Shown: positions 9,191 through 62,256, numbered from the stretch's first letter. The stretch: DNA of 64,000 bases from an uncultured Treponema sp. (GCA_946615905.1 CAMOIE010000007.1:62001-126000); one strand, 5' to 3'. Program-made: numbers and translations. Notes: a model not told the origin generated them from the sequence alone.

Positions 9191-9196
9191 AAAAAA

Positions 9197-9326
9197 GGTG
9201 CTATCTCAAAAGTATAAACACGGTGGTTGAGCTTGTTGGGGCGAAGCCCGCAACCACCATATATAGTCCGAGTGGTCATTTTGACAGGCTCAATGACCTC
9301 TCACCATGAACTTATTAGACAGCCCA
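9197..9326 (+). repeat. MITE-like element with two REP-type hairpins (copy 1)
   Basis: Imperfect terminal inverted repeats: left GGTGCTATCTCAAAAG (9197-9212), right CTTATTAGACAGCCC (9311-9325). Inside are two hairpins: GGTGGTTG (9222-9229) with CAACCACC (9251-9258), and GGTCATT (9274-9280) with AATGACC (9292-9298). It shares GGCTCAATGACC and the AGACAGCCC end with the copy at 11079-11147. No coding capacity. Confidence 0.7.
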
Positions 9327-9402
9327 TATAAATTTTTTTCGCCGCTTTGTGCTATTCCTAAAAGAAAAAGTCCGCAGATCTGGACTTTTTAGGAGGCATG
9401 AA

Positions 9403-10008: not shown

Positions 10009-10043
10009 TTTAAAAATTTATCGGGTTCGGGTATAATCTTTGC

Positions 10044-11027: not shown

Positions 11028-11078
11028 TTTATCTGCAAATGCCCCCTACAGGCTCAGTAACCCTCGGTGCTACGCACT

Positions 11079-11147
11079 GGGGCTGTCCAAAAAGCAGCAT
11101 AGACGGCGGCTCAATGACCGCATTCTGCGAACTTTTCAGACAGCCCC
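11079..11147 (+). repeat. MITE-like element (copy 2)
   Basis: 69 bp with terminal inverted repeats GGGGCTGTCCAAAAAG (left) and CTTTTCAGACAGCCCC (right), which match at 14 of 16 positions. It shares GGCTCAATGACC and the right end with copy 1 at 9197-9326. Together the copies enclose the recombinase and exonuclease genes. Confidence 0.72.
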
Positions 11148-11171
11148 ACCTTCCGGTGGCTTGGCGCAGTT

Positions 11172-12020
11172 TCATTTCAAAAATTCAGTCTTTCCTACCC
11201 AGCGGTAGAATAGCTCAGGCCAGACTGCGTTCTGCGGAATAATGTCTTTTCCACCGTTGTCCGGGCGGGCAGTCTCCTCCGTGCAAAGAGATGTTCCGTG
11301 GTGGCCATGCTCGAACAAATGGTATTCAAATGGAACCTTTGCCTTTCGCAAAGCCATCACCAGATAAAGGGAATTCTCGGCTGGAACGGCTGAATCTTCG
11401 TTTGTGTGCCAAATAAAAACCGGTGGAAAGTCAGGGGCAATGTGTTTTTCCAAACTGATGTCGTCACGTGTGTATTTTGAATTTCCTAAAAGATTTTTGA
11501 CAGAACCTTCGTGGCAGTCAGCTTCTTTTGCGGTGATTACCGGGTAGCAGAGACAGAGGGCGTTAGGCTTTATTTCGTCTGCCTTGTATGACAAAAGATT
11601 TGAAATCATCTGGCTTTTGTAAAATGCTCCCAGACTTGCCGAAACGTGGCCGCCGGCGGAAAATCCGCAGAGAATTATTTTATCCGGGTCTACGTGCCAT
11701 TCTTCTGCGTGGCTGCGGGCGTAAAAAACAGCTTCTGCGGCATCGCAGATTTGGGCTGGAAATTCCGCAGGGGCAAGTGAATATTTTAAAACCGCCGCCT
11801 GAAATCCGAATGAATTCATTTTTACGGCGACCGCTTCTCCCTCTCGGTCAGAAAGATGTGAATAGCCACCGCCTGGGCAGACGATTACGAGCGGGCGCTT
11901 TCTGTCAGAGTCAAAAGAGGCGAAGTTGTCCAAAAGATATGCGGTCAGGGTCGGATTTTCATCGTTTCCTTTTACTTTATTTCCGTAGTGGACTGAAAGG
12001 TTGATTTTTTCGATTTTCAT
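11172..12020 (-). CDS. Alpha/beta-hydrolase, esterase (HSL / acetyl-xylan esterase-like)
   Basis: Soluble 282-residue hydrolase without signal peptide. The oxyanion segment CPGGGYSHLSDREGEAVA (48-65), nucleophile Ser121 in GFSAGG, Asp209 in NEDSAVP and His240 in HGHHG complete the catalytic triad. This CPGGGY form is common in carbohydrate esterases of gut bacteria that deacetylate xylo-oligosaccharides, but the substrate is inferred only. Downstream (lower coordinates) is the MITE-like repeat at 11079-11147. It is monocistronic and divergent from mtnN. Confidence 0.85.
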   Translation of the reverse strand: MKIEKINLSVHYGNKVKGNDENPTLTAYLLDNFASFDSDRKRPLVIVCPGGGYSHLSDREGEAVAVKMNSFGFQAAVLKYSLAPAEFPAQICDAAEAVFYARSHAEEWHVDPDKIILCGFSAGGHVSASLGAFYKSQMISNLLSYKADEIKPNALCLCYPVITAKEADCHEGSVKNLLGNSKYTRDDISLEKHIAPDFPPVFIWHTNEDSAVPAENSLYLVMALRKAKVPFEYHLFEHGHHGTSLCTEETARPDNGGKDIIPQNAVWPELFYRWVGKTEFLK

Positions 12021-12067
12021 GGAAGAATTGTATCAGATTTCTTAGAAAGTTGTTTTAAAAAGAAAAA

Positions 12068-12107
12068 GAGCCGCTTAAAGGAGGAGAAATAGCGGCCCTT
12101 TTTTTAA
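12068..12107 (+). terminator. Terminator-like hairpin without an obvious upstream gene
   Basis: GCCGCT and AGCGGC pair around a 15-nt loop that contains AAAGGAGGAGAAAT, a perfect Shine-Dalgarno, followed by a run of seven T. It lies between two divergent genes, so on the plus strand nothing obvious is terminated. It could end a small RNA or attenuate the minus-strand esterase transcript (the minus strand is also T-rich after the stem). Confidence 0.5.
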
Positions 12108-12259
12108 CTTTATTTATCTTGCTGCTGACTGTAATTTAGTATAAAGGGGCTTTTTAATCAATACTTTTTATGCTAAAATATTAGCAAATAATTGATAAGT
12201 TACTGTTATTTTTGAAAACTTTTGAAATTGATTGCAAATTTTGCAAGGAGTCACATTTT

Positions 12260-12973
12260 ATGAATAAAATCGGAATTATCGGCGCAATGGACGAAGAGGT
12301 CGCTTACTTAAAAAGCCTCGCAAAAAACGCGAAAAGCACTGCCGCCGGCGGACTTGAATTCGTTGAGGGGGAGATTGAAGGAGTACAGGTTGTGGTCGTC
12401 ATGAGCGGAATAGGCAAAGTGAATGCCGCCCTCTGCGCCCAGCGTTTGATTTTGCAGTTCAACTGCACTCACATAATCAATACAGGAATTGCAGGAGCTG
12501 CCGCCCACGGACTCGGCGTTTTGGACATGGTTGCCTCAACGGACGCTGTTTACCACGATTTTGATGTGACAGGATTCGGCTACAAACCCACGGTTATTCC
12601 CCGCATGGAAAAATCAGCCTTCCCCGCTGACGAAAAAATGCTCAAAGCCGCCATTTCTTCTTTTGAGGAAATGAAAGACGCGGAGCCGTTCAAAGGCCAC
12701 AAGTTGATTTCCGGCAGAATCGCTTCCGGCGACCAGTTTATCTCAGACAAAAAAGTAAAGAATCACATAGTCGAGATTTGCTCCCCGGCCTGTGTTGAAA
12801 TGGAAGGGGCTGCGATTGCCCACGCATGTTTTATCAATAAGACTCCCTTTTTGGTTTTGCGCTGCATGAGTGACATGGCGGACGATGGCGAAGAAGCGAC
12901 CTATGACTTTAACGATAAAATCGCCGCAGACATGAGCGCCCGCCTTGTTGTAAGGATTATTCAGAAAATATAA
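12260..12973 (+). CDS. mtnN: 5'-methylthioadenosine/S-adenosylhomocysteine nucleosidase
   Basis: Cytoplasmic hydrolase that cleaves adenine from SAH and MTA, giving S-ribosylhomocysteine for LuxS. The N-terminus MNKIGIIGAMDEEV with Glu12, the MEGAAIAHAC substrate loop and RCMSDMADD with the catalytic Asp are all standard. ATG at 12260 is chosen because AAGGAG lies 9 nt upstream and the family starts exactly here; upstream in-frame codons look non-coding. 237 residues. luxS follows after 54 nt. Confidence 0.96.
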   Translation: MNKIGIIGAMDEEVAYLKSLAKNAKSTAAGGLEFVEGEIEGVQVVVVMSGIGKVNAALCAQRLILQFNCTHIINTGIAGAAAHGLGVLDMVASTDAVYHDFDVTGFGYKPTVIPRMEKSAFPADEKMLKAAISSFEEMKDAEPFKGHKLISGRIASGDQFISDKKVKNHIVEICSPACVEMEGAAIAHACFINKTPFLVLRCMSDMADDGEEATYDFNDKIAADMSARLVVRIIQKI

Positions 12974-13027
12974 AATGTATTTTCAAATACTTCCGGCGTG
13001 AGTTTTTAGCAATAACAGGAGAAAATT

Positions 13028-13498
13028 ATGGAAAAAAAATATAACGTTGACTCATTTAACCTTGACCATACAAAGGTCGTTGCCCCTTATGTCCGTCTGG
13101 CCGCAAAAAAGGTCGGGGAAAAGGGCGACATCGTGACAAAATTTGACATCCGCATTTGTCAGCCAAATAAAGAATTCATGCCGACCGGGGCCTTGCACTC
13201 GATCGAGCATATCGTTGCTGAATATATCCGCGATGAGGTTGAGGGCGTGATTGACTTCAGTCCGATGGGCTGCCGCACAGGTTACTATTTTACTGTCTGG
13301 GGCGACCGCGATGAGGCTTTTATCGCCGAACACATGGTCAACGTCTTTAAAAAAGTCGTCGCCTGGGATGGTCCCGTTCCTGCCGCCACCGAAAAAGAAT
13401 GTGGCAACTACAAGGATCAGGACTTGGAAGGGGCAAAGAAATTTGCCGCTCAGTTCGTAAAGGGAATTGAAGAAAAAGGTTGGAATTGCTACAAGTAG
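13028..13498 (+). CDS. luxS: S-ribosylhomocysteine lyase (AI-2 synthase)
   Basis: Metalloenzyme that splits S-ribosylhomocysteine into homocysteine and DPD, the AI-2 precursor. Metal ligands His57 and His61 (HSIEH) and Cys125 (ECGNY), plus catalytic Cys82 in GCRTGYY, are present. 156 residues is standard. AGGAGAAAATT precedes the ATG. With mtnN just upstream it forms the activated-methyl-cycle salvage pair. Confidence 0.97.
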   Translation: MEKKYNVDSFNLDHTKVVAPYVRLAAKKVGEKGDIVTKFDIRICQPNKEFMPTGALHSIEHIVAEYIRDEVEGVIDFSPMGCRTGYYFTVWGDRDEAFIAEHMVNVFKKVVAWDGPVPAATEKECGNYKDQDLEGAKKFAAQFVKGIEEKGWNCYK

Positions 13499-13519
13499 TT
13501 TGCTTTTCTCTTTTAATCT

Positions 13520-15061
13520 ATGAACTTTCAGCAAAAATTCAAGGAAACTCTTTTTTCTGTCCTCCCGATTATGGCAATCGTCTTGGCTCTGGGGCTTACA
13601 ATTGCGCCTCTTGGAGCCTCTTTGATTGCCCGCTTTCTTTTTGGCGGGGCATTGGTCATCGTTGGGCTTACGATTTTTTTGCTTGGAGTTGACATCGGAA
13701 TTCAGCCGATAGGAGAACGTTCTGGTGCTGCTCTTGCCGCAAAACGAAATCTTCCGCTTTTACTCGCTGCTTCTTTTTTCATCGGATTTATGATTACAAT
13801 CGCCGAGCCTGACGTTCAAGTTCTGGCGGAACAGGTAAAAGGAGTCGCTCCGCAAATCAGCAAGTGGGGCTTGATTTTGATGATTGCCGGAGGAATCGGA
13901 CTTTTTACTTCTCTCGGAATTTTGCGCACAATTCTTTCCCTTCCGCTAAAAATTGTCCTTACAATTTCATACATAGTCGTCTTTATCCTCGCATTTTTTA
14001 CTCCAGAAGAATTTCAGGGAATCGCCTTTGACTCAGGTGGTGCGACTACAGGTCCTATGACAGTTCCATTTATCATGGCCTTGGGAATCGGAGTTTCCGC
14101 TGTCCGTTCGCGCGGTGCTTCTGACGACAAAAAAAATCAGGTAAGCGATGATTCTTTCGGACTTACGGGAATGGCTTCTATCGGACCGATTGCCGCAGTC
14201 TGCCTTTACGGAATAATTTTTTACAGGAATTCGATTTCTCCCGCTTCATCTTCCGCAAGCTCTGTGGCAGCCGTTCAATCCGCAGAAAATTTGCTGATTT
14301 TCTTGGAGCTTTTGCCTGAAACGATTTATGAAGTCCTTTCAGCTCTTGCTCCCCTTGTTTTGATGGCTATTTTATTTCAGATTTTTTTGATTAAAATGCC
14401 GCCTTTCCAACTTTTCCGCATGATTCGAGGTTTGCTGCTTTCTTTTGCGGGACTTGTCCTTTTTTTGACTGGGGCGAACGGTGGCTTTATGCCGGCAGGA
14501 CTTAAACTCGGTGGAATTTTAGGCGGACTGGCTTCGTCAGACTCTTTTTGGACTTTTGTTTTGATTGCAGTCGGATTCGTTTTTGGAGCAGTTGTCGTTT
14601 GCGCAGAACCGGCCGTCTGGGTTTTGACTGAGCAGGTCGAGTCTGTTTCTGGCGGTACAATAAAACGCCGGGTTATGCTGATTGCCCTTTGTGCAGGTGT
14701 GGCTTGCTCAATTGGAATTTCAATGCTGCGTGTTTTGACAGGATTCAGCCTTTGGACAATTTTGATTCCAGGCTACGCAATTTCCTTGCTTTTAACCTGG
14801 TTTTGCCCCAAACTTTTTACAGGGATTGCTTTTGATTCCGGCGGTGTTGCTTCCGGCACAATGACTTCGACTTTTATTTTGTCGTTCACGCTTGGAGCGT
14901 CTGCGGCCACTGGCGGAAATCCAGCGGTCGATGCATTCGGTGTAATCGCCTTGGTCGCCATGACTCCGCTGATTGCAATCCAGATTTTGGGAATTATTTT
15001 CAAAATCAAGAGCGATAAAAGCAATCATGACAAAAAGCTTGAGGAGGTCAAAATCAAATGA
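13520..15061 (+). CDS. Double DUF1538 membrane protein (UmpA-UmpB-like fusion)
   Basis: Polytopic membrane protein of 513 residues made of two homologous DUF1538 halves. The repeat is visible directly: FQGIAFDSGGATTGPMT in the first half and FTGIAFDSGGVASGTMT in the second, each following an AEPDVQVL / AEPAVWVL segment. DUF1538 pairs (UmpA/UmpB) have been described as cation/proton antiporters; here both units are in one chain. It overlaps the next gene, a tandem P-II-like protein, by 4 nt (ATGA), which suggests that partner regulates it. Start codon lacks a clear Shine-Dalgarno. Confidence 0.8.
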   Translation: MNFQQKFKETLFSVLPIMAIVLALGLTIAPLGASLIARFLFGGALVIVGLTIFLLGVDIGIQPIGERSGAALAAKRNLPLLLAASFFIGFMITIAEPDVQVLAEQVKGVAPQISKWGLILMIAGGIGLFTSLGILRTILSLPLKIVLTISYIVVFILAFFTPEEFQGIAFDSGGATTGPMTVPFIMALGIGVSAVRSRGASDDKKNQVSDDSFGLTGMASIGPIAAVCLYGIIFYRNSISPASSSASSVAAVQSAENLLIFLELLPETIYEVLSALAPLVLMAILFQIFLIKMPPFQLFRMIRGLLLSFAGLVLFLTGANGGFMPAGLKLGGILGGLASSDSFWTFVLIAVGFVFGAVVVCAEPAVWVLTEQVESVSGGTIKRRVMLIALCAGVACSIGISMLRVLTGFSLWTILIPGYAISLLLTWFCPKLFTGIAFDSGGVASGTMTSTFILSFTLGASAATGGNPAVDAFGVIALVAMTPLIAIQILGIIFKIKSDKSNHDKKLEEVKIK

Positions 15062-15723
15062 ATTCAGAGAATATGCGGAATTCATTTTCACTTTTGGTGA
15101 TTTTTGTTCCTCACGATAAGGGCGAAAAACTCACCTCGGCTGCTCTTGCGGCGGGTTCTTCTGGCGGAACAGTTTTAATGAGCCGGGGACTTGCGGATTC
15201 CAATTTCAAGGCGGTTCTCGGTGTAGGTGAAGCCACAAAAGACGTGATTCTTATGCTTGTTGAAAATTCAAGCAAAAGCGCGATAATTTCTGCGATAAAA
15301 GAGGCGAGCATTAACGAAAAAGCGAATTTCGGAAAAATTTTTTCTGTTGACTCAGGGCTTTTTATGCGGGGCGGAAATATTTTAGAAGGAGAAAGGCAGA
15401 TGAATTCAGAATCTTCACGTGAAATGATAGCAGTTATCCTGAACCGGGGTTATGCCGATGACGCAATGGCAGCCGCTAGAAAAGCCGGAGCAGGAGGCGG
15501 AACTGTCATAAATGCTCGTGGAACTGCCCGCGAGGACGATGCGAAATTCTTCGGAATGCACATCGTCCCGGAAAAAGAAATGCTGATAATGATTGTGGAA
15601 AGCGAAAAAAAATCTGCAGTTTTGGAGGCAATCCGTTCATTAAAATGCCTCTCAGAACCTGGCAGCGGAATCGCCTTTTGCACTCCTGTCAGCGATTTTT
15701 CAATGTTGGGCAAGCAAAAATAA
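15058..15723 (+). CDS. Tandem P-II-like regulatory protein
   Basis: 221-residue soluble protein with two P-II (GlnB-fold) repeats, roughly residues 9-98 and 118-207. Each has the fold's first strand followed by an A.AAG(S/A)GGGTV.(M/N)(S/A)RG motif: AALAAGSSGGTVLMSRG and AARKAGAGGGTVINARG. Translationally coupled (ATGA overlap) to the DUF1538 transporter upstream, so it probably gates that transporter in response to a nucleotide or ion. The classical uridylylated T-loop Tyr is not evident. Confidence 0.78.
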   Translation: MNSENMRNSFSLLVIFVPHDKGEKLTSAALAAGSSGGTVLMSRGLADSNFKAVLGVGEATKDVILMLVENSSKSAIISAIKEASINEKANFGKIFSVDSGLFMRGGNILEGERQMNSESSREMIAVILNRGYADDAMAAARKAGAGGGTVINARGTAREDDAKFFGMHIVPEKEMLIMIVESEKKSAVLEAIRSLKCLSEPGSGIAFCTPVSDFSMLGKQK

Positions 15724-15742
15724 CTAACGGTCGTAAGTCAGC

Positions 15743-16825
15743 ATGTCCACAAAAGAATCTATCGCCAAAATTTTAAAGACCTCAAATGATTTTGTTTCCG
15801 GTGAAGAGCTTGCGCAAAAATGCGGGGTTTCCCGTGCGTCAATCTGGAAGGCTGTAAAAGCTCTAGAAAGCGAAGGCTGGCTGATTGATGCCGTTACAAA
15901 CCGTGGCTATAAAATCAAAGCAGAGCCAGACCATGTTACAAGCGAGGGAATCAGCGGATTTCTAAAAGAATTGGGTGCGGATTTTTCATTCGTCTTGGGA
16001 ACGGATTCAATTGACTCGACGAATTCCGAGGCAAAGAGACGGGCTGCTGAAGCAGGTGCCTTTCGCAATGAAAGCGGAGAACTTACTCCTTCCGGGAAAA
16101 ATCTTCACAAAGCCCTTTTTGCCGCCGGTCAGCAAACTGCGGGTCGTGGCCGCATGGGAAGACCTTTTGTCTCTCCGCCGAACACTGGCGTTTATTTTAC
16201 GGTAATTTATTCTCCCAAAAAGGGAGTTCAAAATCCTGCTCTTTTGACCGCCGCAGCTGCCGTAGCCGTTGCCCAGACTGTCGATGAGCTTTACGGAACT
16301 GACTGCAAAATCAAATGGGTGAATGATGTTTTTGCAAACGGAAAAAAAATCTCAGGAATTTTGACCGAGGGATTTTCTAATTTTGAGACTGGCCGGATTG
16401 AAGCGGCTGTTGTAGGAATTGGGATAAATATTCGCAAAAATGATTTTGGAGGTGACTTGGCAAAAGTCGCCGGCTCTATTCAAGATGCTTTGGAATCAGA
16501 CATGAAAGAATTTAAAGCTGTTCCGAGAAACCATCTTGTTGCCGGAGTTTGTGCCCGTCTGATTCATTTTTATGACTCCTTTGAGTCAGACAGCCAGAAT
16601 TCTGGTGAAATTGAAAAAATGATTGAAAACTACCAAAAACGCTCGCTTTTGACCGGAAAAATTGTTACAGTTCATCCTTCTGCAGGAATCGGTGGCGGAG
16701 AATATTTAGCGAAAGTCATCGGAATCGACAAGCAGGCCAGACTTTTGGTCAGACTTGATAGCGGGAAAGAGATGGCTCTTCAATCTGGAGAAGTCAGCCT
16801 GCACAGCTATGATTTTACCGTTTGA
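15743..16825 (+). CDS. birA: Biotin--[acetyl-CoA-carboxylase] ligase / biotin repressor
   Basis: Bifunctional BirA of 360 residues. Residues 1-60 form a winged helix (VSGEELAQKCGVSRASIWKAVKALESEGW), so DNA binding is likely. The ligase domain has the biotinyl-AMP loop QTAGRGRMGRPF, KWVNDVF with the catalytic Lys, and KKISGILTEG. A C-terminal SH3-like domain follows. About 20 residues with ESGELTPSGKNLHK are inserted before the GRGRMGR loop. No strong Shine-Dalgarno precedes the ATG. No biotin genes are near, so its regulon is elsewhere. Confidence 0.95.
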   Translation: MSTKESIAKILKTSNDFVSGEELAQKCGVSRASIWKAVKALESEGWLIDAVTNRGYKIKAEPDHVTSEGISGFLKELGADFSFVLGTDSIDSTNSEAKRRAAEAGAFRNESGELTPSGKNLHKALFAAGQQTAGRGRMGRPFVSPPNTGVYFTVIYSPKKGVQNPALLTAAAAVAVAQTVDELYGTDCKIKWVNDVFANGKKISGILTEGFSNFETGRIEAAVVGIGINIRKNDFGGDLAKVAGSIQDALESDMKEFKAVPRNHLVAGVCARLIHFYDSFESDSQNSGEIEKMIENYQKRSLLTGKIVTVHPSAGIGGGEYLAKVIGIDKQARLLVRLDSGKEMALQSGEVSLHSYDFTV

Positions 16826-16898
16826 CACAAGACAAAGTGTTTAAAATCTGCAAATAGTGTGATACAATTAGAGTAACTTTTCTTTGGAGTTGAATATC

Positions 16899-18566
16899 AT
16901 GAGCGATTCAGATTTAGACCCGACAATTGCGGCCTTGCTTGCCGAAAGTTCCAGTGATGACTCAGATGATGACGGAGAGTTCGATTCTCCTGATGGTTTT
17001 CCAGAAATTCATGACGTTCCGCTTTTTGGTGAAGAAAAATCAGCTGCCGATGACGTTCCGAAAGTTGATTTGAGTGTTACCCAGTTCAAGCCGATTGAGA
17101 AATTTTATGAAGAAACCGGTCACAATTATTTCAGTGAGGCCGGCTACTATAAAACCGCATTGACCGGTGAGGGAGAGCCTGCCCAGCGCGTCCATCAGGT
17201 TTTGTCAAAATATTTGACCTGCCAAGACCCCAAGGACAAGACCGTTTACCGTCAGCAGATTACAATGGCTTTTTGGGAATTGCTTAGGAAAATCGCCCCT
17301 AAGATGGGACGGTCTTCAACGCCCATGTCAAAAAAACTTTTGATGCGTTTTGGCGTAATTTTGCCTTCGCTCTTTACTCCTGACCAGAAGGATTTGTTTT
17401 CCAAAGTCATAATGGAAAATAACACCGGCGAGCCGGTTTATTACATGGACGAATGGTTCAAGGCAATCGCAAACGGCAGCCTTACCCTTTCTGCAACTGA
17501 TGAAGTCCGTGTCCGTAAAAGTGACGCAAATGGCGAGCAGCAGAGAATCAAGCAGCTCAAAAGCAAGAATGACGGAAAATTACAGTCAGCAGAGAACCTG
17601 TTGAATGCAAAGGAATCCGAGCGTGCGATGATGGAGTCCGAGCTGAAAAGTCGTATTGATGCCCTTTGTGAACACGCCCCAGTTTTGGGAATGGAGCCGC
17701 ATAAAATGCCTTATACCGAGGCGCAGACAAAACTCTTTGCGGAAATTATGGAGCGTTTGAGAGCGCTTCAAAAAAACAACAAAGAGCTTTCTGCAAACTT
17801 GAAGGATTTTGAGGAAGCGAAGGAAATCAACGTTTCTCTTGAGCAAAAACTTGACGCAGCACCAGAAACTATTGAAGTCTCTGTTACAGATATCAATACC
17901 GAGATGGATACGGTTCGTCAGATGGCAAAAATGACAATCGGCCGGCGCGGCAACCAGTTCCCGATTTTTACACGTGAATTCTTCCACTGTATTCCGCAGG
18001 GCACAGGTTTTCGTGAGAACGTTTTGAACATAATGAGCTGGGTTGAAGAAAACGACCCGGAGGCTTTCTGCCGCGTTCACAAAAACACAAAGAACCGTAT
18101 CGTTCCTTACGTTCTGCTTGTTCCGACTTACGGTGACTTCGGTTTCTGTTGGGAGCCTTTTGACCGTTACAACCGTGTAACTTCCCGTGGAAGAATCGTT
18201 GTTCCGATGTACCCCCGTGACCTTAAAATTTCGATTTTGATGGCCGTAGCTGACTTGCGCTGGCAGGTTGCAAAGGAAAAGGCCTCCTACTACTGGATGG
18301 AAGAAGGTCTTACAGGCCAGTATTACCAGTGGGCAGAAAAACAAAAGCTCAAGGGCGAGTTGAAGTCATATTTCATTTCTGACTATGTTCTTTGGATGAC
18401 AAAGGAAGTAAACGGCGTTCAGCGCATGGATAAAGAACTTCGTGCAATCTTCTGGCGCTATATTCCATTCAGTCAGGCAAAGAAGGAAGAACTTAAAAAG
18501 CGCAGTTTGGTTTATCAGGAACTTTACCAGCGCGACATTAACCGCAGCATGAGCGATGGATATTGA
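16899..18566 (+). CDS. Conserved hypothetical, acidic N-terminus and coiled coil
   Basis: Not recognised. 555 residues, no signal peptide or membrane helix. Residues 1-60 are very acidic (runs of [13 protein letters not shown]). A coiled-coil-prone stretch lies around 210-330 (many K, E, L, with [21 protein letters not shown]). The C-terminal third is rich in aromatic residues ([41 protein letters not shown]) and looks globular. ATG at 16899 is preferred to an in-frame TTG at 16884 because GGAG lies 9 nt before it. It overlaps or abuts the chemotaxis receptor gene, so a link to signalling or cytoskeleton is possible but unproven. Confidence 0.75.
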
Positions 18567-48633: not shown

Positions 48634-48704
48634 GGGAACTCCTGTTGGATAAAAATCAGTTTTATTTTCCGCCAGAATTATCCAAAAGGCAAGTGGAAAG
48701 ATGA

Positions 48705-48972
48705 GAATTCGGGCGCATCCCTCACTTCGTTCGGGTCGGGCGTTACGCAGTTCGCTAATGCTCAGCCGCTTCACTCACTTCGTTCGCTCCAGTGGCCGGC
48801 TTCGCCCTTCGCAGCACAGCTGCTCGGAGACTCGCTAAAAACAGTCCACCGGACTGTTTTTCCGGCTTCCGCCGTCGCTCACTAGCTGCTCCATGCCCTT
48901 GCGCGTGAGCGCAAACGTCAATAATTTCCACTTACGCAAACGGAGCGTAGCGACGTATGCCCTTGCGCGGGG
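48705..48972 (+). repeat. GAATTCGGGCGCATCC palindrome-rich repeat, copy A
   Basis: Starts with GAATTCGGGCGCATCC and ends near CCCTTGCGCGGGG. Contains several short hairpins such as AAAAACAGTCC / GGACTGTTTTT. It occupies the whole gap of about 350 bp between ldhA and the XRE regulator; no gene was seen in it. Shares its first about 38 nt with copy B (57422-57560). Confidence 0.8.
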
Positions 48973-48984: not shown

Positions 48985-49287
48985 TTATTTCACACTATCA
49001 AACAGTTCGTTTATCGTTTTTGTTACGCTGTCTACCATACTGATACGCAGATTTTCCAAATTCACACATTCAAATCCGCCTTTGTCAAACAAGTCGAGGG
49101 CGTCCACTTTTAGTGCAGTTGCGATTTGTCGCAACATCGGAAGCGACGGGAAATATCTTCCGTTTTCAATCATCGCTATGTAATTTGCCGAAGCCTTAGC
49201 TTCTTCCGCCAATTTCTCCTGAGAAAGATGCAGCTGTTTTCGGTAGCGTTTCATATTGCCCGCAAGGCACGCCTGTATTCTATCCAT
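48985..49287 (-). CDS. XRE-family transcriptional regulator
   Basis: 100 residues, mainly a Cro/C1-type helix-turn-helix: NMKRYRKQLHLSQEKLAEEAKASANYIAMIENGRYFPSLPMLRQIATAL. The short C-terminus (VDSVTKTINELFDSVK) could dimerise. It is divergent from the secreted-protein gene at 49416; two near-identical 15-bp palindromes in the shared 128-bp intergenic region are its likely operators. Confidence 0.88.
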   Translation of the reverse strand: MDRIQACLAGNMKRYRKQLHLSQEKLAEEAKASANYIAMIENGRYFPSLPMLRQIATALKVDALDLFDKGGFECVNLENLRISMVDSVTKTINELFDSVK

Positions 49288-49322
49288 AAAATATAAATCA
49301 CATTGATATTTACAATTTTTCT

Positions 49323-49337
49323 ATAAATGTCGCTTAT
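49323..49337 (+). promoter_or_regulatory. Operator-like palindrome, site 1
   Basis: ATAAATGTCGCTTAT, an imperfect form of site 2 with the right half CGCTTAT intact. Centre is 51 bp from site 2, about five helical turns. Confidence 0.65.
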
Positions 49338-49373
49338 TGACTATTTGATATTGCTGATATAGATTTTAAACAC

Positions 49374-49388
49374 ATAAGCGACGCTTAT
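49374..49388 (+). promoter_or_regulatory. Operator-like palindrome, site 2
   Basis: ATAAGCGACGCTTAT, a perfect 15-bp palindrome (odd centre A), 27 nt before the ATG at 49416 and between the divergent XRE regulator and secreted-protein genes. Confidence 0.7.
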
Positions 49389-49415
49389 AAAAAATTAATT
49401 TTTGGAGGTAATCTT

Positions 49416-50093
49416 ATGAAAAAGATTGCAATGATTTTGATGGCGGGCGTACTTAGTGCGACAATGGTGTTTGCAGAGGAGGCAAAAAAGCCCGAATTAA
49501 AGCCTCTTGCTTCCGCTGAGATGCAGGCAATTCGTACTGCAACAAGTCTTGCTGAATATGGCTATGCCAATGATTCTGCCTCTGCTTTGATTGGTGCGGC
49601 AGAAATTCTTGCACAGGTCAATACTCAAAAAGGTGAGTTGAAGAGCGAGAAAAAAGGAGACGGCGGAGAAGAAGTGGAAAAGCCTACTGATTTTACCGCC
49701 GAGCAACTTTTAAAAGACGGTAAAAAACTTGCTGGCAAAGACAAGACCATGCTCAAATGGGCAGCAGAAGTCGAAAAGTCCATCAAAAAGTCTACGCGTG
49801 GTGCAGTCGGTGGTCCACAGAAAATGATGGACTGGATTCCTGGTCTTGGTGGTTATGCGACTTATTATGTAAATTGTTACGGTGGCGAAGAACTTGAAAT
49901 ATATATTCATTCTCTCAATGGAAAAGAACTAGATGTCGAAATTTATGACGCAAACGGAAACTTTATTGGTAGTGATGCATCTTACACCGCCGACGCATAT
50001 ATTTCCGTCGTTCCGTATTATACCCAAACTATGTACTTTGTCGTAAGAAATAATTCTTTACTAAAAGGATATTTTGAAATTTATACAAACTAA
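49416..50093 (+). CDS. Secreted hypothetical protein with C-terminal beta-sandwich-like domain
   Basis: 225 residues with a clear cleavable signal peptide (MKKIAMILMAGVLSATMVFA). A helical middle (residues about 30-130, Lys/Glu-rich) is followed by a Tyr-rich C-terminal domain (YATYYVNCYGGEELEIYIHSLNGKELDVEIYDANGNFIGSD) reminiscent of pre-peptidase/PPC-type beta sandwiches; that likeness is only by eye. TTTGGAGGTAATCTT precedes the ATG. It is first in the row of genes leading to the TPR-CHAT peptidase and likely under control of the divergent XRE regulator. Confidence 0.7.
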   Translation: MKKIAMILMAGVLSATMVFAEEAKKPELKPLASAEMQAIRTATSLAEYGYANDSASALIGAAEILAQVNTQKGELKSEKKGDGGEEVEKPTDFTAEQLLKDGKKLAGKDKTMLKWAAEVEKSIKKSTRGAVGGPQKMMDWIPGLGGYATYYVNCYGGEELEIYIHSLNGKELDVEIYDANGNFIGSDASYTADAYISVVPYYTQTMYFVVRNNSLLKGYFEIYTN

Positions 50094-50106
50094 GGTTTGC
50101 GTAGTG

Positions 50107-50133
50107 TGCGGTCAGTCTGTGCTGACCGTGCGG
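50107..50133 (+). terminator. Hairpin between the secreted-protein gene and the downstream operon
   Basis: GCGGTCAG pairs with CTGACCG around TCTGTG; a T-rich stretch follows (TTTATTTTTT). A partial terminator or processing site. Confidence 0.5.
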
Positions 50134-50160
50134 TTTATTTTTTGATTTGGAGAAAACTGT

Positions 50161-50370
50161 ATGAATAATCCATCGTATCTTACGGTAAATTGGCAATCCA
50201 AAAAAGGTGAAAAGAAATCAGACTTAGTGATGAATCCTATTTGTGGTGTAGACTTTACAACATATCCTGAAAAAGTCCTTATTGATGTTCAAAAGATAAA
50301 GTCGCAATTACGGGGAGAAAAGAAAATTACAGACGATGTAGAAATAGTTTCTATAGAATTTTCCAAATAA
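50161..50370 (+). CDS. Small hypothetical protein upstream of kinase-like/CHAT genes
   Basis: 69 residues, soluble, no recognised domain. TTGGAGAAAACTGT upstream is a good Shine-Dalgarno. The next start is 12 nt after its stop, so it is co-translated with the kinase-like and CHAT genes. It could be a substrate or regulator of either; nothing in the sequence decides this. Confidence 0.6.
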   Translation: MNNPSYLTVNWQSKKGEKKSDLVMNPICGVDFTTYPEKVLIDVQKIKSQLRGEKKITDDVEIVSIEFSK

Positions 50371-50382
50371 AGGCTAGTGGTT

Positions 50383-51144
50383 ATGCAAAAACTGACTTCT
50401 GTATATTGCGAACAAATTGGGCAGGGTGGCAATTGGAAAGTAGAAGATGTTTATTTGAATTCTCCTTTTTCTAGTTGTATATCAGCATATAACAATATTG
50501 TTTTCAAAATTCCACTAACTGGTGATGGTACAAAAATAGCCAAGAGTTTAGAAAAATATGCGTTCTTAAAAAGTATAAACGCACCTGTTCCTTTGTTTTT
50601 CGAAGAAGTCGAACTTGATGGCATTCATGGCATCGCAACAAATAATTTAAATGCCAATAAAAAAGAAATTTTATATGTAAGTCCAAATACCGCAAGAAAA
50701 ATGGCTTTGACGAAAGATGAAAAAAATATTCATACATTATTAAATTCCTTATCAAGTGAAGCAAATCAAAATGAAAATTATACTAATGCCATATTCGGAA
50801 AAGCAGAATATGAATTAAGCAATAATAAATTACAAACAATTAAAAATTTGACTTGGGTAAAACACAAACTATTTGATTTAGCTTCGAATTGTGCCAGAAA
50901 TGAAATTTGTTTATCAGAAGATTCCGTATTTTTTTCTGTCGATATTAAAAATTCTAAAATTGATGATGTGATTATTGCAGATTTTGATTGCATTTTGCTT
51001 AAACAGCAAGTAAACATAGAAAACAATTTAAAAAATCTTTTTAGGGCATTGCTAGAATTTATTCAGTGGTTTTGTGAGAAAAATGCAATTCCCGAAAAAG
51101 AAAAATCCCAAATAGAAACACTTGTCAATACGAAAACGATATGA
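50383..51144 (+). CDS. Protein with remnant protein-kinase fold
   Basis: 253 residues, AT-rich, no signal peptide. Kinase-like landmarks: glycine-rich QIGQGGNW (11-18), VFKI with Lys42 as a possible beta-3 lysine, a hinge-like region, LSEDSVFFSVD (178-187) in place of the HxDxxxxN catalytic loop, and IIADFD (197-202) as the metal-binding DFG equivalent. The catalytic-loop Asp is not obvious, so activity is doubtful. ATG at 50383 is preferred to GTG at 50377 (AAAGG 9 nt upstream). Its stop overlaps the start of the CHAT gene by 4 nt. Confidence 0.55.
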   Translation: MQKLTSVYCEQIGQGGNWKVEDVYLNSPFSSCISAYNNIVFKIPLTGDGTKIAKSLEKYAFLKSINAPVPLFFEEVELDGIHGIATNNLNANKKEILYVSPNTARKMALTKDEKNIHTLLNSLSSEANQNENYTNAIFGKAEYELSNNKLQTIKNLTWVKHKLFDLASNCARNEICLSEDSVFFSVDIKNSKIDDVIIADFDCILLKQQVNIENNLKNLFRALLEFIQWFCEKNAIPEKEKSQIETLVNTKTI

Positions 51145-54100
51145 AAAAAATAGTATTTCTTATCGTCATGTTTCTTCTTGCTTGCATGGCGGTTTTTGCT
51201 CAAAGAAAGGTAGCTGAGTCTAATATTCCTCGTGATTTGCAAGAAAAAATTGAATATATCCGAGATGAAAATTCTGACTGCACAATAGAATATATTGATG
51301 AAGTCGAAAGAGAATTGTCACAATACTGTTCTGAAGATGATTATGTTTTTGGAATAACCACAGATAAAAAAGGTGAACTATTTTATGTTAGGGGGGATTA
51401 TGATAATGCATTGTTATGCTATAAAAAATCATTGGCAATTTTTGAAGCGGCTAAAATAAATGCTTTTTGGATTTATAATAATCTAGGCATGATTTATAAT
51501 GACAGAGCACAATATGATTTGTCAATAAAATATTATGAACAAGGTATTGATCTTTGTAAAAAAGACTTTGGCGAAGAAAATCTTTATCTTCCAGCATTTT
51601 TTAATGGACTTGGAGACATTTATTATGAAAAGAATAATTACGATGAAGCTCTGAAGTATTATAAGTTGTCCTATGCAATGTTTGAAAACGACAAAGAAAT
51701 AGAAAACGATGATGTAATAATTACTTGTGCAAATTTGGGAAGAATTTATTATGTTACTGCCGATTATGATAATGCATTAATTTTTTTTGAAAAGGCATTT
51801 GCACTTAACGAAAGAATTTATGGACAAGACAATGATTATACGGCCACCTTGTTTGGTTGGATTGCTAGCATTTATGAAATGCAGGGTGATTATGACAAGG
51901 CTAAGATTTATTATAAAAAAGATATTTTATATAGCCAACAAAAAAAGAATGAAATGCATCCCGATTTAGCAACGGCCTACAATAATATTGCTGTATTTTA
52001 CTATCAAATAGAGGATTATGATAATGCACTTGAATACTGTAAAAAAGCTCTTTTAATTCGTCAGAAAACTTTAGGAGAATGGCATCCCGAGATAGGTACA
52101 TCATATGGTAATCTTTCTTCAATTTATTTCAAAAAAGAAAATTATGATGAGGCTCTTGAATATTGCTTAAAATTTTATGATACGGCAAAGAAAAATTGGG
52201 GCGAAAACCATCTCGATATGGCAAAAGCCTATAGTAAGATTAGCAATTTTTATCTAGGTATGAAAGACTACGATAATGCTATTTTTTATTATGAAAAAGC
52301 ACTAGAAATACAACAAAAACTTTTAAGCAAACAACATCCTTCTATTGCAAATTCTTATTACAATATAGGTTTTTCATATGCTATGAAAAATAATGCTTTT
52401 GAAGGTATTGAATACTATAAAAAAGCGTTTGAAATTTTTAATTTCTCAAAAGATTACGCAACCACATTAAAAATATTAAATAAAATCCTCTTCTCACATC
52501 TCCCCGACCCCGCTTTCACTCGCGAAACGCTTGCCCTTGCCACAGACACCGTAGAGCGCGCGCGACTCGACCTCTCTTCGCTCAAAGATGACATTTTGCG
52601 TAAGTCGCTTCCAATCTATTATTACGGCGTGCAGTTTGAGGCGGAAGAGGATAATCCTGCGAAGGCATTCGAGTATTCGGAATCAATGCGGAGCCGAGGC
52701 TTCCTTGACCAGCTCGGAACGGAGGCTGCGTTAAAACTTGACGGCGTTACGGACGATGAGCGGGAGCAGATTCATTCGCTAGAAGCGGAAATCACTTATC
52801 GAAGGAAAATCATTGAGGAAGAAAATTCCAAGCAAATCTCCGAGCGAGACGAAAAACGGCTTTCGGAGACGGTACGCGAACTTTCGGCTGCGGAAAAATC
52901 ACTTTCCAAACTGGACGAAAAAATCGCAAAGCGCGTTCCTGCCTATTCACAGTTGAGAAATCCTCAGCCAACCATTGCAAAAGATGCTAAAAAGTGGTGC
53001 GGAAAGAATCGCGCCGTTCTTGAATATGTTCTCTGGAATCCCGAATTTTCCACGGGAAAAGAGGACTCAGAGCCTGAACACCGTGCATACTGCATCGTCG
53101 TCACCAAAAAGAAAGTGCTGGCGATTCCGTTGGATTCTGAATACGACTACACGCAGGCGGTCAACAAAATCCGAAAGGGCATAAGCGGGCTAAAGAGGGA
53201 AAGCCAGTTTGAAAGCCCCCGAAACGAACTTTATGAAAAATTGATAGAGCCTGTTCTTCCCTATCTTGGCGGCATCAAGGACTTGGTGATTGTGCCTGAC
53301 GGAAGCCTTGCCTTCCTTCCGTTTGATGTCCTCAGAAAAGATGCGGACGCAAAGGACTTGGGGCAGAAATTCGCCGTGTCGCTTTCGCCGTCGGTCTCGG
53401 TCAGTATGATTTCTTCCGCGAGCAAAACTCCAATAGAAAAAGTGCTTGCATTTGGAGGCGCGTGGTACGACACAAGTCTTTCCGCAGAAGAGCATCGCCG
53501 TGGTTTTTCTGACGCTGGAAATTCCCGAGGGCGTGGCGTGAACCGAGGCACGATACAAACTGATTTTTCTGTGGAAGGAAAGAACGAAAAGCAGATTGCC
53601 TATATGAGGCATGACATAGCAAGGAACGGCCCTGGCTCATATTTTGCGGAAAAGAACTTGAAGTGGCAGGATTTGCCCGGAACGCTCGCGGAACTAAATA
53701 TACTCAAAACTTCAGTGTTCACAGACGGGCGATTTAGCGAGCGGGTTCAGGACGAGGCTTCTGAGCGCAAGGTAAAGGAACTTTCAAAGGACGGAACGCT
53801 CGGCAGTTTCCCAGTCCTGCATTTTGCCTGCCACGGCTACTTTGACGGCAGCATTTCCGAAATGTCCAGCGTCCTTTTTTCCGAAGTTTCGGGAAAAATT
53901 GAATCCGATGATGACGGCTACCTGACGATTCCAGAAGCGTCAGTTCTAAATCTCAACGCCGATATGGTCTGCCTTTCCGCCTGTGAGACAGGTCTTGGCG
54001 AAGTTAAGGCAGGAGATGGTATGGTAGGTCTTTCCAGAGCTTTTATGGTTGCCGGTGCGCGTCATGTAGGCGTAAGCCTTTGGTGTGTAGACGACCAAGC

Positions 54101-54251
54101 AACAGCAAAATTCATGGCGAGGATGTACGAACTGGTTGAAAAGAAAAAGATGAGCTACACGGAAGCCTACCGCGCAGTTAAAGCGGAATTCCGCAAAGAC
54201 GAAGATTTTTCACATCCGTATTACTGGTCAGCGTTCGTGCTGTATGAGTGA
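51141..54251 (+). CDS. Exported TPR-CHAT peptidase
   Basis: 1,036 residues. Signal peptide (MKKIVFLIVMFLLACMAVFA), then about nine TPR units of 42 residues of kinesin-light-chain type (for example YNNIAVFYYQIEDYDNALEY, YGNLSSIYFKKENYDEALEY) up to about residue 440, a helical linker with coiled coil (540-600), and a C-terminal CHAT domain. The caspase-like dyad is complete: His898 in HFACHGYFDG and Cys948 in LSACETG, followed by GLSRAFMVAGARHVGVSLWCVDD. The signal peptide puts it in the periplasm or outside the cytoplasm. Base composition changes sharply near 52,480: the TPR half is AT-rich, the CHAT half much richer in GC. ATGA overlap with the kinase-like gene. Confidence 0.88.
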   Translation: MKKIVFLIVMFLLACMAVFAQRKVAESNIPRDLQEKIEYIRDENSDCTIEYIDEVERELSQYCSEDDYVFGITTDKKGELFYVRGDYDNALLCYKKSLAIFEAAKINAFWIYNNLGMIYNDRAQYDLSIKYYEQGIDLCKKDFGEENLYLPAFFNGLGDIYYEKNNYDEALKYYKLSYAMFENDKEIENDDVIITCANLGRIYYVTADYDNALIFFEKAFALNERIYGQDNDYTATLFGWIASIYEMQGDYDKAKIYYKKDILYSQQKKNEMHPDLATAYNNIAVFYYQIEDYDNALEYCKKALLIRQKTLGEWHPEIGTSYGNLSSIYFKKENYDEALEYCLKFYDTAKKNWGENHLDMAKAYSKISNFYLGMKDYDNAIFYYEKALEIQQKLLSKQHPSIANSYYNIGFSYAMKNNAFEGIEYYKKAFEIFNFSKDYATTLKILNKILFSHLPDPAFTRETLALATDTVERARLDLSSLKDDILRKSLPIYYYGVQFEAEEDNPAKAFEYSESMRSRGFLDQLGTEAALKLDGVTDDEREQIHSLEAEITYRRKIIEEENSKQISERDEKRLSETVRELSAAEKSLSKLDEKIAKRVPAYSQLRNPQPTIAKDAKKWCGKNRAVLEYVLWNPEFSTGKEDSEPEHRAYCIVVTKKKVLAIPLDSEYDYTQAVNKIRKGISGLKRESQFESPRNELYEKLIEPVLPYLGGIKDLVIVPDGSLAFLPFDVLRKDADAKDLGQKFAVSLSPSVSVSMISSASKTPIEKVLAFGGAWYDTSLSAEEHRRGFSDAGNSRGRGVNRGTIQTDFSVEGKNEKQIAYMRHDIARNGPGSYFAEKNLKWQDLPGTLAELNILKTSVFTDGRFSERVQDEASERKVKELSKDGTLGSFPVLHFACHGYFDGSISEMSSVLFSEVSGKIESDDDGYLTIPEASVLNLNADMVCLSACETGLGEVKAGDGMVGLSRAFMVAGARHVGVSLWCVDDQATAKFMARMYELVEKKKMSYTEAYRAVKAEFRKDEDFSHPYYWSAFVLYE

Positions 54252-54275: not shown

Positions 54276-54645
54276 TTACTTCCCCAGCACTTCCCTCGCA
54301 ATCGCCACACTCACCATCGCGTCCTTCGAGTAATAATCCGCCCCAATCTGAGCCGCGTAGTCTTCCGTCAGAACCGCTCCGCCGACCATAATCTTGCACG
54401 ACTTTCCAACTTCGCCGAGTTTTTCCCGCAAAAGTTTAATCGTCGTCTCCATGTTCGCCACCGTGGTTGTCATCAGTGCCGAAAGTCCAACGAACTTCAC
54501 GTCCTTTTCAAGCACCGTCTCAACGACTTTTTCCGCAGGGACGTTCTTTCCCAAGTCAAGAACCGTGTAGCCGTAGTTTTCGAGCATGGCTTTCACGATG
54601 TTTTTTCCAATGTCGTGGATGTCGCCGAAAAACGCAAGGCTGAGG
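54276..54645 (-). pseudogene. 3' fragment of a corrinoid (B12-binding) protein gene
   Basis: Reading on the minus strand: GDIHDIGKNIV (the DxHxxG cobalt-ligand motif), then KAMLENYGYTVLDLGKNVPAEKV, GLSALMTTTVANM and VGGAVLTEDYAAQIGADYYSKDA, ending VLGK. This is the Rossmann half of methyltransferase corrinoid proteins. The frame breaks off near 54645, where an oppositely oriented ankyrin gene begins, so the N-terminal helical half is missing. It does not look functional. Confidence 0.8.
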
Positions 54646-55760: not shown

Positions 55761-56405
55761 ATGAGCGATAAAATGGAATTATATAAAACTGCTATCGAAG
55801 GCTATCAGTCACATTGGGAACATTATAATCACTGGATGAATATGTATGCCATCTTCAATGGCGCATTGTTTGTTGGCTTGTATACACTTGGGCAAACTGC
55901 CGATTTTGTATTGAAATTAGCAATATTACTTTTAGGTTGTATTTCAAGTTGGTTCTGGCTCTTTTCTGCCCGTGGCTTTTATCGGTGGATTATCTCTTGG
56001 ATAAATGTCGTAAAGAAACAGGAAAAACTGCTTGAAACGGAATTAGTCAAATCTGGGAACAATGAACAGAATCAACAGTTTAAAGCAGAAGACACATACA
56101 TTTATCGTGCATTTATTTTCGGCAAAAAAAAGAGTCCGTTCACTTATACACCTTTTTCAACTCAAAAATTGACGCAGTGGTTTTCAGGCAGCGTTGCTGT
56201 CATTTGGAGTGGAATAACAATTTACTCACTTTGGAAAGAATTTAAAATTTTTCAAAATATCTGTCCGATTTTGTATGTGATATTTGGAGCAATAGTTCTG
56301 GCAATTATTCTATTATGTTTTATCTCTACTTGCCGAGAGACACCTCTAAACGAAACTCATCATGTGTTTTGCCCGAAAGGAAAAGATGAGTTTGAATTAG
56401 ACTGA
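55761..56405 (+). CDS. Hypothetical membrane protein
   Basis: 214 residues. An N-terminal EGYQSHWEHYNHWMNMYAIFNGALFVGLYTLG leads into one helical pair (LKLAILLLGCISSWFWLFSARGFY), a soluble middle, and two more helices near the C-terminus (WFSGSVAVIWSGITIYSL, ILYVIFGAIVLAIILLCFIS). A family is not recognised with certainty; it recalls small membrane proteins found next to toxin or defence genes. GGGGAAACGGTT precedes the ATG. The 3' end overlaps the convergent PBECR4-like gene by 46 nt. Confidence 0.6.
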   Translation: MSDKMELYKTAIEGYQSHWEHYNHWMNMYAIFNGALFVGLYTLGQTADFVLKLAILLLGCISSWFWLFSARGFYRWIISWINVVKKQEKLLETELVKSGNNEQNQQFKAEDTYIYRAFIFGKKKSPFTYTPFSTQKLTQWFSGSVAVIWSGITIYSLWKEFKIFQNICPILYVIFGAIVLAIILLCFISTCRETPLNETHHVFCPKGKDEFELD

Positions 56406-57251: not shown

Positions 57252-57421
57252 AGCGGAAAGAGCTGCTTTCATCCCCTTAGACTGAATGTCCGCAAGATGT
57301 CCCGCTACAGCAGCTTCCAATCCCGCGACCTTCGTCAAATCTTCCTTCCAGAAGTCAACGTTAGCCAATATGCGGTTTGCAATCACCTTTGCGTCCTGGT
57401 CTCTTTGTTCAAAGTCGCGAA
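57240..57421 (-). pseudogene. uxaB: 3' fragment of tagaturonate reductase gene (uxaB)
   Basis: Minus-strand frame reading RDFEQRDQDAKVIANRILA, then NVDFWKEDLTKVAGLEAAVAG and HLADIQSKGMKAALSAIVK with a stop. This matches the extreme C-terminus of mannitol-dehydrogenase-type tagaturonate reductases. Upstream (57422 onward) the frame runs into repeat copy B, so about 400 residues are missing. Repeat insertion coincides with the break. Confidence 0.7.
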
Positions 57422-57560
57422 GAATTCGGGCGCATCCCTCACTTCGTTCGGGGCGGGCTTTTGCGAGAAATGCAAGGCATTTCTCGTTACGAGTTTGCAA
57501 AGCAAACTCGCGGGTTCCGCGCTAACCGCGCTCCATTCCTACAATCCCTTGCGCGGGAGT
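57422..57560 (+). repeat. GAATTCGGGCGCATCC palindrome-rich repeat, copy B
   Basis: Begins GAATTCGGGCGCATCC, matches copy A for about 38 nt, ends near CCCTTGCGCGGG as copy A does. Internal hairpins include AAATGC / GCATTT and GAGTTTGC / GCAAACTC. Truncates the uxaB remnant. Confidence 0.8.
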
Positions 57561-60587: not shown

Positions 60588-62052
60588 ATATACTCTGACT
60601 GATATAAAAGATATTCCAGAAGATTTAGAATTGTATGATTCTTTTGGAAAAATTCTTGAAAAGAATACAGGATTTTTCACCGATGAAACTTTTCGACAAT
60701 GTAACGAAATTATTTTCAATTACACGAAGTTACATTCAAATGTCATTCTCCAAGAGCCAATTTCACAGGCTGATTCTGATAGAATAAAAAATTGCCTTGC
60801 TACTGCAAGAAAATTTCTTTGCGAAAGTATCTCAGAACAAAATATCGTCAAGACAATAATTGCTTTATGCCTCATAAATTTTTATGAGCAGGATTTTTCG
60901 TTGTTTGAAGGAATAGAATTTCCGTCTGCATATAAAAATATACTTTTCGAATCTACTAAAAACATTTCGCTAAATTTTAACTTGCAGAAATTGGCAGATT
61001 ATTCTGAACACAAAAGACTTGATGTGTTTAATGAAGCAAAAAAAGCCAACGATTATTCGGCTCTGCTTAAAATGATGGATGAATTTTCACTTAATTCGTC
61101 AATATTTGGAAGAATTGAGAAATCGTGGGGAATCCTATTTTGCTGGCTTTGGTTTTTAGAAAAAGCATTCATATATAAATTATTAGAAAAGTCAAATTCT
61201 GAAACAATAGAGGCAATTTTTATAAGTCTGGAAGATAGGATTTTGGAAATTGTCTTTCATTACAAAAGCGACTCGAATTATTATCCGCTGTTGCGTGGAT
61301 TCATGCTTTTGTTTCATTTATATGACAAAAAATTGAGACAGAAAGAAATAAAAGCCGTACAGGAATTGCCCGATTTTACGGATTCCTTTATTCGTGTTTG
61401 GAATGACGATAAAATTTCACTTGCGACTTATATACCTTTTATGAGAATTAGGCATTTGCAATCATTTAACTATTGCTTTGGAAAAGCGGTTGAAAAAGAT
61501 ATTTCGCTGTTGAATTTGTATATTTCATTTGCGGAGATGGATTATAAAAGTTCAGAAGCGTTTACGCTCGGATTTTTGGAAAATGCCGATTCTGAGACGG
61601 TGTTGATTGTCGGCGAGGCAATAATAAAAGAGTTTTTTGACAAAAAAATAGAATCGCATGATGCCGTAAATAAAGCCATTGGATATTTTAATCTGATAAC
61701 TGACTATTTTTATGAAAAGTTTTCAACACGCGAAAAATATCGGGAAAGACTGTCAGCAATTTCGAGCGCAATTATCAAACTACAAAACAGCTGGGATTTT
61801 CAAAATATAAAAAAATATTGGATTGAATTATTTTATTTGGCTTTGACAAATAACCTTTTAAAATTCTACTTTTCCGCATCTGAATTGGAAAGTGTTGTGC
61901 CAGTTCTCTTTGATAAACGTCAGGAAATTATTTGCGGAAAAGAAAACATAGAAACGATGAAAGCACTACTTACAAGTTTGGTGAAAGTTGTGAAATTAAA
62001 ACACTTTTCTGATGATATTGAATTGGAATTTAAGGCGAAGGAATCTCTGTGA
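60577..62052 (+). CDS. Large alpha-helical protein paired with the PLD-like protein
   Basis: 491 residues, AT-rich, no signal peptide or clear membrane helix. Sequence is rich in Leu, Phe, Lys, Glu with helical periodicity throughout, suggesting a helical repeat scaffold; no known domain is recognised. ATG at 60577 is used because AAAAGGAAG precedes it; in-frame earlier codons from 60505 lie inside the upstream gene. It probably partners the PLD-like protein; nothing else in its sequence reveals a role. Repeat copy C begins immediately at its stop codon. Confidence 0.65.
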   Translation: MGFKYTLTDIKDIPEDLELYDSFGKILEKNTGFFTDETFRQCNEIIFNYTKLHSNVILQEPISQADSDRIKNCLATARKFLCESISEQNIVKTIIALCLINFYEQDFSLFEGIEFPSAYKNILFESTKNISLNFNLQKLADYSEHKRLDVFNEAKKANDYSALLKMMDEFSLNSSIFGRIEKSWGILFCWLWFLEKAFIYKLLEKSNSETIEAIFISLEDRILEIVFHYKSDSNYYPLLRGFMLLFHLYDKKLRQKEIKAVQELPDFTDSFIRVWNDDKISLATYIPFMRIRHLQSFNYCFGKAVEKDISLLNLYISFAEMDYKSSEAFTLGFLENADSETVLIVGEAIIKEFFDKKIESHDAVNKAIGYFNLITDYFYEKFSTREKYRERLSAISSAIIKLQNSWDFQNIKKYWIELFYLALTNNLLKFYFSASELESVVPVLFDKRQEIICGKENIETMKALLTSLVKVVKLKHFSDDIELEFKAKESL

Positions 62053-62053
62053 A

Positions 62054-62256
62054 GAATTCGGGCGCATCCATCGCAAACCTTCGGTTTGCTTAACGAGTTT
62101 TGCTTTCTGCCGACAGCGCTTGAAACTTCGCACATTCGTGCTTGTTGCGTAAACCGCGTCAGATTTGCTTCGCAAACCAGCAAAACTCGCGCAATTATCT
62201 TGCGCTACCCTGGGCAGGCACGCCGGGTCGGGCTACTTGCCGTTCCACCCGATCTC
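62054..62256 (+). repeat. GAATTCGGGCGCATCC palindrome-rich repeat, copy C
   Basis: Starts GAATTCGGGCGCATCC, then diverges from copies A and B; contains GCAAACC / GGTTTGC and further hairpins, and GAGTTTTGC ... GCAAAACTC at a distance. Begins 2 nt after the stop of the helical-protein gene. Confidence 0.75.

Follow-up and report, generated by a model that had tools for sequence, protein, structure and literature searches.

An exported TPR-CHAT protease and a secreted two-domain partner form the conserved core of a recurrent gene unit found across two phyla. The unit came to light in a 64-kb (64,000-nucleotide) stretch of DNA from an uncultured Treponema sp., here called the window, whose relevant features are listed in Table 1. 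In all 14 loci found (12 from Treponema and 2 from Bacteroidales), the partner adjoins a TPR-CHAT gene, which lies downstream of it and within about 2.5 kb. An earlier note on this DNA had proposed a system in which a 69-residue protein and a kinase-like protein were further components. Of that gene order, the partner/TPR-CHAT pair is conserved at every locus and a divergent XRE gene at 8 of the 12 Treponema loci, while the 69-residue and kinase-like genes are not, and the secreted partner defines the system better than does the kinase-like gene. We consider it quite possible, at somewhat less than an even chance, that the locus is an envelope-located proteolytic relay with the TPR-CHAT protein and its exported partner at the core and with swappable outputs.

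Table 1. Positions of the features discussed, counted from the first nucleotide of the window
Feature	Coordinates	Strand	Remarks
XRE/HTH transcriptional regulator	48985..49287	-	HTH_19, E 1.3e-13; divergent from the cassette
Operator-like site 1, ATAAATGTCGCTTAT	49323..49337	.	80% match to site 2, which lies 51 bp downstream; putative operator
Operator-like site 2, perfect palindrome ATAAGCG-A-CGCTTAT	49374..49388	.	sole exact match in the window; putative operator
Secreted two-domain partner	49416..50093	+	signal-like segment; predicted helical domain, about residues 34-126; predicted PPC/GOLD-like beta-sandwich, residues 135-225
Interdomain linker RGAVGGP (R128-P134)	49797..49817	+	candidate CHAT cleavage site, between helix 110-126 and strand 135-141
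69-residue protein	50161..50370	+	no family at a meaningful E-value
Orphan 255-residue protein	50377..51144	+	kinase-like motifs read by eye; start may instead be the ATG at 50383; stop overlaps CHAT start
Exported TPR-CHAT protease, 1036 aa	51141..54251	+	His898 codon 53832-53834; Cys948 codon 53982-53984
Conserved CHAT region	52485..54248	+	composition break at its start, GC3 0.21 to 0.53 at codon 448
8xMP-family membrane protein	55761..56405	+	PF24838, E 4.1e-16; differs from the middle-slot 8xMP of other loci

A profile search for the partner recovered 12 copies in 11 of the 200 genomes of the genus, together with weak partial matches in two others, and none in a sample of 296 genomes of the phylum outside the genus. 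Scanning a larger collection added two Bacteroidales MAGs; the relatives are Treponema, several of them from rumen or omasum samples, and no member of the family was found in viral contigs. The CHAT domain scores over its cut-off in 23 of the 200 congeners, a patchy distribution, and the partner-bearing genomes all fall among the CHAT-bearing ones (hypergeometric p 3e-12). The source genome itself carries a second partner/CHAT cassette, on contig 18 (L017). Four CHAT loci of the genus (L070, L067, L072 and L075) have no adjacent partner of either this kind or the second kind described below. No PADLOC system-specific model matched, the matches being confined to generic HTH, TPR and ankyrin-type models. 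In the literature we found no description of a partner or substrate for an exported TPR-CHAT protein, and what we found joining Treponema and the CHAT domain concerns diversity-generating retroelements.

The partner was modelled with AlphaFold2 using 11 homologues (pLDDT 84.1, pTM 0.77), and the model places helices up to residue 126 and an eight-strand beta domain from residue 135. Compared by Foldseek, the predicted beta domain matches GOLD, PPC and collagenase-binding sandwiches, with the PPC domain of 5sv5 at E 1.1e-4 and TMt 0.66 and GOLD domains at TMt up to 0.80. The protein scores 15.8 bits against Pfam PPC (PF04151), below the cut-off of 25.9; as modelled, the domain is PPC-like in fold but not a member of that Pfam family. 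PPC and GOLD domains are frequent binders of ligands or partners. At one sister locus (L026, 6664-7185) the partner frame is broken past the linker, which may reflect either real decay or an assembly error.

The linker between the two predicted domains, R-G-A-x-G-G-P, is strongly conserved among 12 aligned homologues from two phyla: R128, G129 and G133 are invariant, and A130 and P134 are each kept in at least 90%. To have five of seven positions invariant or nearly so is above expectation for a segment of this length (p about 0.002). Because separase- and metacaspase-type caspase-fold proteases cut after Arg, we infer by analogy that R128-G129 is the best candidate bond for cleavage by the CHAT protease; the conservation could instead serve folding or binding alone.

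The TPR-CHAT protein matches the CHAT family PF12770 at E 1.3e-58 (199 bits, against a curated Pfam cut-off of 24) and carries five TPR_12 stretches (E 5e-63). Its active site, reported as intact in the earlier note, is confirmed by the H898 and C948 dyad, which is invariant in 11 of 11 aligned homologues. Compared with PDB sequences, the CHAT region gave no meaningful match. Like the partner, the protein has a basic N-terminus that leads into a hydrophobic stretch, so that both N-termini read as signal-like when judged by hydropathy alone, in agreement with what had been noted before. Export had also been presented as a peculiarity of this CHAT protein, a view we do not retain: because about 7 of 9 CHAT proteins sampled from plasmids of Cyanobacteria, Proteobacteria and Gemmatimonadota have export-like N-termini by hydropathy, export of a CHAT protein is not in itself new, and other phyla have many exported CHAT proteins. 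By the same measure, most full-length CHAT proteins of the genus Treponema also have a signal-like N-terminus. An Arg-Gly-rich loop within the CHAT domain was considered as an autocleavage site. Of the 13 Treponema CHAT proteins with a linked partner that were examined, 10 have the loop; it is absent in L025 and L027 and mixed elsewhere, and we keep it as no more than a weak hint. At another locus (L019, 8367-11663) the CHAT gene is split into two ORFs, which may again be real decay or an assembly error.

What lies around the conserved pair varies from locus to locus. In 7 of the 12 Treponema loci an 8xMP-family membrane protein is encoded between the partner and the CHAT gene; two of these (L017 and L018) score 107 and 105 bits for PF24838, whose cut-off is 30, and the other five were assigned by about 64-71% identity to the first. 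The slot is empty in two loci (L024 and L026) and is filled by the 69-residue and kinase-like genes in the window locus only. In several loci the middle gene overlaps the CHAT gene or sits within about 20 bp of it. The window has an 8xMP gene of its own 1.5 kb downstream of the CHAT gene, past an ankyrin gene, and this may correspond to the usual middle gene in a displaced position; the contig-18 cassette likewise has an ankyrin gene downstream. In L025 and L027 the partner and CHAT genes are adjacent, and upstream of them are genes for a trypsin-like protein and for a TIR protein that has a membrane segment (called by Pfam in L025 and by sequence similarity in L027). These two loci (827-14448 and 784-15638, respectively) run in the order exported trypsin-like protein, large membrane protein, TIR protein, partner, and one or two TPR-CHAT proteins, a TIR-WD40 protein of L027 occupying the place of the second CHAT of L025. 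The Bacteroidales loci (L126 and L127, about 7854-18378) run exported caspase, ECF sigma factor, anti-sigma-like protein, partner, trypsin-like protein, DUF2441 protein and TPR-CHAT; the sigma factor scores over the cut-off of TIGR02937, the membrane protein is only weakly anti-sigma-like, and the DUF2441 match to Pfam was tested in L126. No weight was given to an RGL motif that the exported caspase proteins carry, a usual feature of that family.

Other exported CHAT genes of the genus adjoin a different exported family, of transglutaminase-like proteins (L065, L068, L071, L073 and L074), which is unrelated to the PPC-like partner. Near-full-length members occur in 11 of the 200 genomes, all of which have a CHAT match, 9 of them over the curated cut-off. 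In every readable N-terminus of this family an Arg-Gly stands just ahead of the folded domain. Homologous sequences give a high background in such a motif search, so that this coincidence lends weak support, and the parallel with the Arg-Gly of the PPC-like partner is suggestive but weak.

The tight three-gene run described earlier is present in the window with all ORFs open, the last two genes overlapping as ATGA. The middle gene of the run encodes the 255-residue protein, which had been read as a degenerate kinase fold. By eye, a VFKI, an alpha-C-like Glu and a DFD can be picked out, and no HRD loop is recognisable; against Pfam and PDB sequences the protein has no match even at E 10, and its single-sequence AlphaFold2 model reaches a pLDDT of 36. 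No relative was found at a meaningful E-value in 196 congeners or in 247 genomes of the phylum, where the best non-self matches (E 0.001-0.004) cover short or broken stretches and were taken as chance, and pattern scans of 84,980 genomes and of viral contigs returned nothing, nor did a search of plasmids. The kinase assignment is accordingly a reading by eye, and on these searches we reject the gene as a conserved component. The 69-residue gene fares no better as a defining part, neither gene having been found at the sister loci compared. Its product was considered as a Kazal-type inhibitor and rejected, the match (E 0.17) covering 15 residues only.

Upstream, the XRE gene (-) and the secreted-protein gene (+) diverge around two operator-like 15-mers, an arrangement that both the coordinates and the 15-mers themselves bear out. 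Further copies of the pattern, allowing up to 2 mismatches, were found nowhere else in the 64-kb window. The regulator conserved at the 8 Treponema loci is an XRE-type protein of the HTH_3 family. We postulate that the XRE protein of the window would act on the two palindromic sites to hold the cassette repressed.

The window copy is uneven in composition. GC3 is 0.21-0.26 in the 69-residue gene, the kinase-like gene and the TPR part, and about 0.53 in the CHAT part; at sister loci the contrast is mostly in the same direction and smaller. Identity between the window protein and those of other loci is 20-31% in the TPR part and 44-70% in the CHAT part. The contrast between the two parts fits either rapid change of a sensor attached to a conserved protease or a recombination event where the TPR and CHAT parts meet. 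A 106-residue ORF (54276-54596, -) lies 25 bp past the CHAT stop; its product resembles a C-terminal piece of a B12-binding protein and shares 72% identity with a portion of an open frame of 887 residues on contig 14, and the ORF is perhaps a rearrangement scar. A 41-bp direct repeat, 95% identical, occurs at 48704-48744 and 57421-57461 and brackets the stretch from the XRE gene to past the 8xMP gene, and a shorter copy lies at 62051-62072.

In the relay that we tentatively favour, the TPR superhelix would be the sensing or docking part, and an envelope or invader cue would align the H898/C948 dyad. The CHAT domain would then cut the partner linker after R128, parting the helical from the PPC-like domain. 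A module in the membrane or cytoplasm, different from locus to locus, would respond to the released piece or to the loss of intact partner. Such modules would be the 8xMP protein in most Treponema loci, the membrane TIR protein in two, and the ECF sigma/anti-sigma pair in Bacteroidales; in the window the part might be played by the orphan kinase-like protein, the downstream 8xMP protein, or both. It is gene order that suggests the tie between these cytoplasmic or membrane modules and the exported pair.

Several other readings of the same data deserve consideration. The TPR-CHAT protein might be a protease that serves housekeeping or envelope stress in the periplasm, with the PPC-like protein as an uncut adaptor that presents substrates, or an inhibitor, with no role in defence or signalling. 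The wide occurrence of exported TPR-CHAT proteins and the common binding of ligands or partners by PPC/GOLD domains favour this; however, CHAT is patchy (23 of 200 congeners) and the partner sporadic, unlike housekeeping genes, the linker is strongly conserved with no binding explanation at hand, and the companions include TIR, caspase and trypsin-like proteins, which are typical of conflict systems, so that we regard this reading as doubtful. The locus could also serve anti-phage abortive infection, envelope attack triggering the CHAT protease and the variable module (8xMP, TIR or kinase-like) killing the cell. Its modular and patchy character, with TIR, caspase and trypsin-like genes, resembles that of predicted conflict systems (PMC7159879, PMC8195603), and its TPR part is far more diverged than its CHAT part; yet PADLOC found no defence family beyond the generic models, an exported protease is unusual among known effectors, and viral contigs gave no match. 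On balance we think abortive infection unlikely.

Two further explanations concern the window copy itself. It might be a decaying or mosaic remnant, in which foreign AT-rich genes were inserted into an old partner-CHAT pair, as the abrupt GC3 break at 52485 (0.21 to 0.53), the fragment matching part of the longer contig-14 ORF just past the CHAT stop and the bracketing 41-bp repeat would allow; but no frame is interrupted, the dyad is intact and the tight gene spacing has been kept, and we hold this to be improbable. Still less probable, in our judgement, is the version of the earlier note, in which the CHAT and secreted proteins make up a separate four-part system together with the kinase-like and 69-residue proteins. 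The ATGA overlap and the shared AT-rich composition of the kinase-like gene and the TPR part speak for it, whereas the kinase-like gene is in no other genome searched, neither gene is at the sister loci, and a kinase fold cannot be demonstrated.

The proteolytic relay can be compared with several known arrangements. In bacterial gasdermin loci the gene of a CHAT or other caspase-like protease is linked to that of its substrate, the proteins are cytoplasmic and the substrate is a pore former; the linkage of protease and putative substrate genes is alike here, and no gasdermin is present. Craspase/CASP (Cas7-11, Csx29, Csx30 and CASP-sigma) offers another parallel: there a single cut by the TPR-CHAT protein Csx29, in a flexible loop of its partner Csx30, relieves a sigma-factor inhibitor (PMC10028731). 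Both combine TPRs with the CHAT His/Cys dyad, and in both a dedicated partner encoded by a linked gene contains a short flexible loop, the cleavage of which is putative here; the Bacteroidales loci also have an ECF sigma factor and an anti-sigma-like gene, which suggests, by analogy, a common logic with Craspase. Unlike Craspase, neither the cassette nor the related loci have Cas7-11 or CRISPR parts among their ORFs, the protease and partner appear to be exported, and the PPC-like partner was not recognised as a homologue of Csx30. Because Cas7-11 is absent and the pair appears exported, we do not file the cassette as Craspase.

A bolder form of the relay would make it a non-CRISPR, extracytoplasmic counterpart of Craspase, common to rumen Spirochaetota and Bacteroidota, in which an exported, Arg-specific TPR-CHAT protease cuts its partner at the Arg-Gly linker and signals across the inner membrane to interchangeable outputs (8xMP, TIR, ECF sigma/anti-sigma, orphan kinase-like); in so specific a form we rate it as somewhat unlikely. 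Exported TPR-CHAT proteins abound among bacteria, and the cassette offers a concrete candidate protease-substrate pair with a candidate bond, R128-G129, kept across two phyla; the function of exported CHAT proteases therefore becomes directly testable. Should the relay prove true, the TPR-CHAT and sigma-factor logic of Craspase would extend to the cell envelope.

With MoxR/vWA ternary systems, EACC and related predicted conflict systems (PMC7159879, PMC8195603, PMC10907252), some of which are membrane-associated, the cassette shares swappable effectors and caspase-superfamily, trypsin-like, TIR and TPR proteins. It differs from them in that no vWA, MoxR, VMAP, STAND NTPase or EAD was recognised and in that its constant core is an exported CHAT with a PPC-like protein. 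The exported CHAT-TPR proteins of Cyanobacteria and Proteobacteria have the same layout, with an export-like N-terminal segment, TPRs and a C-terminal CHAT, but other neighbour genes and about 24-32% identity only. On a Planktothrix plasmid (L119), for instance, an export-like CHAT gene directly follows a two-partner secretion gene pair and is itself followed by DUF928 and CHASE2 genes.
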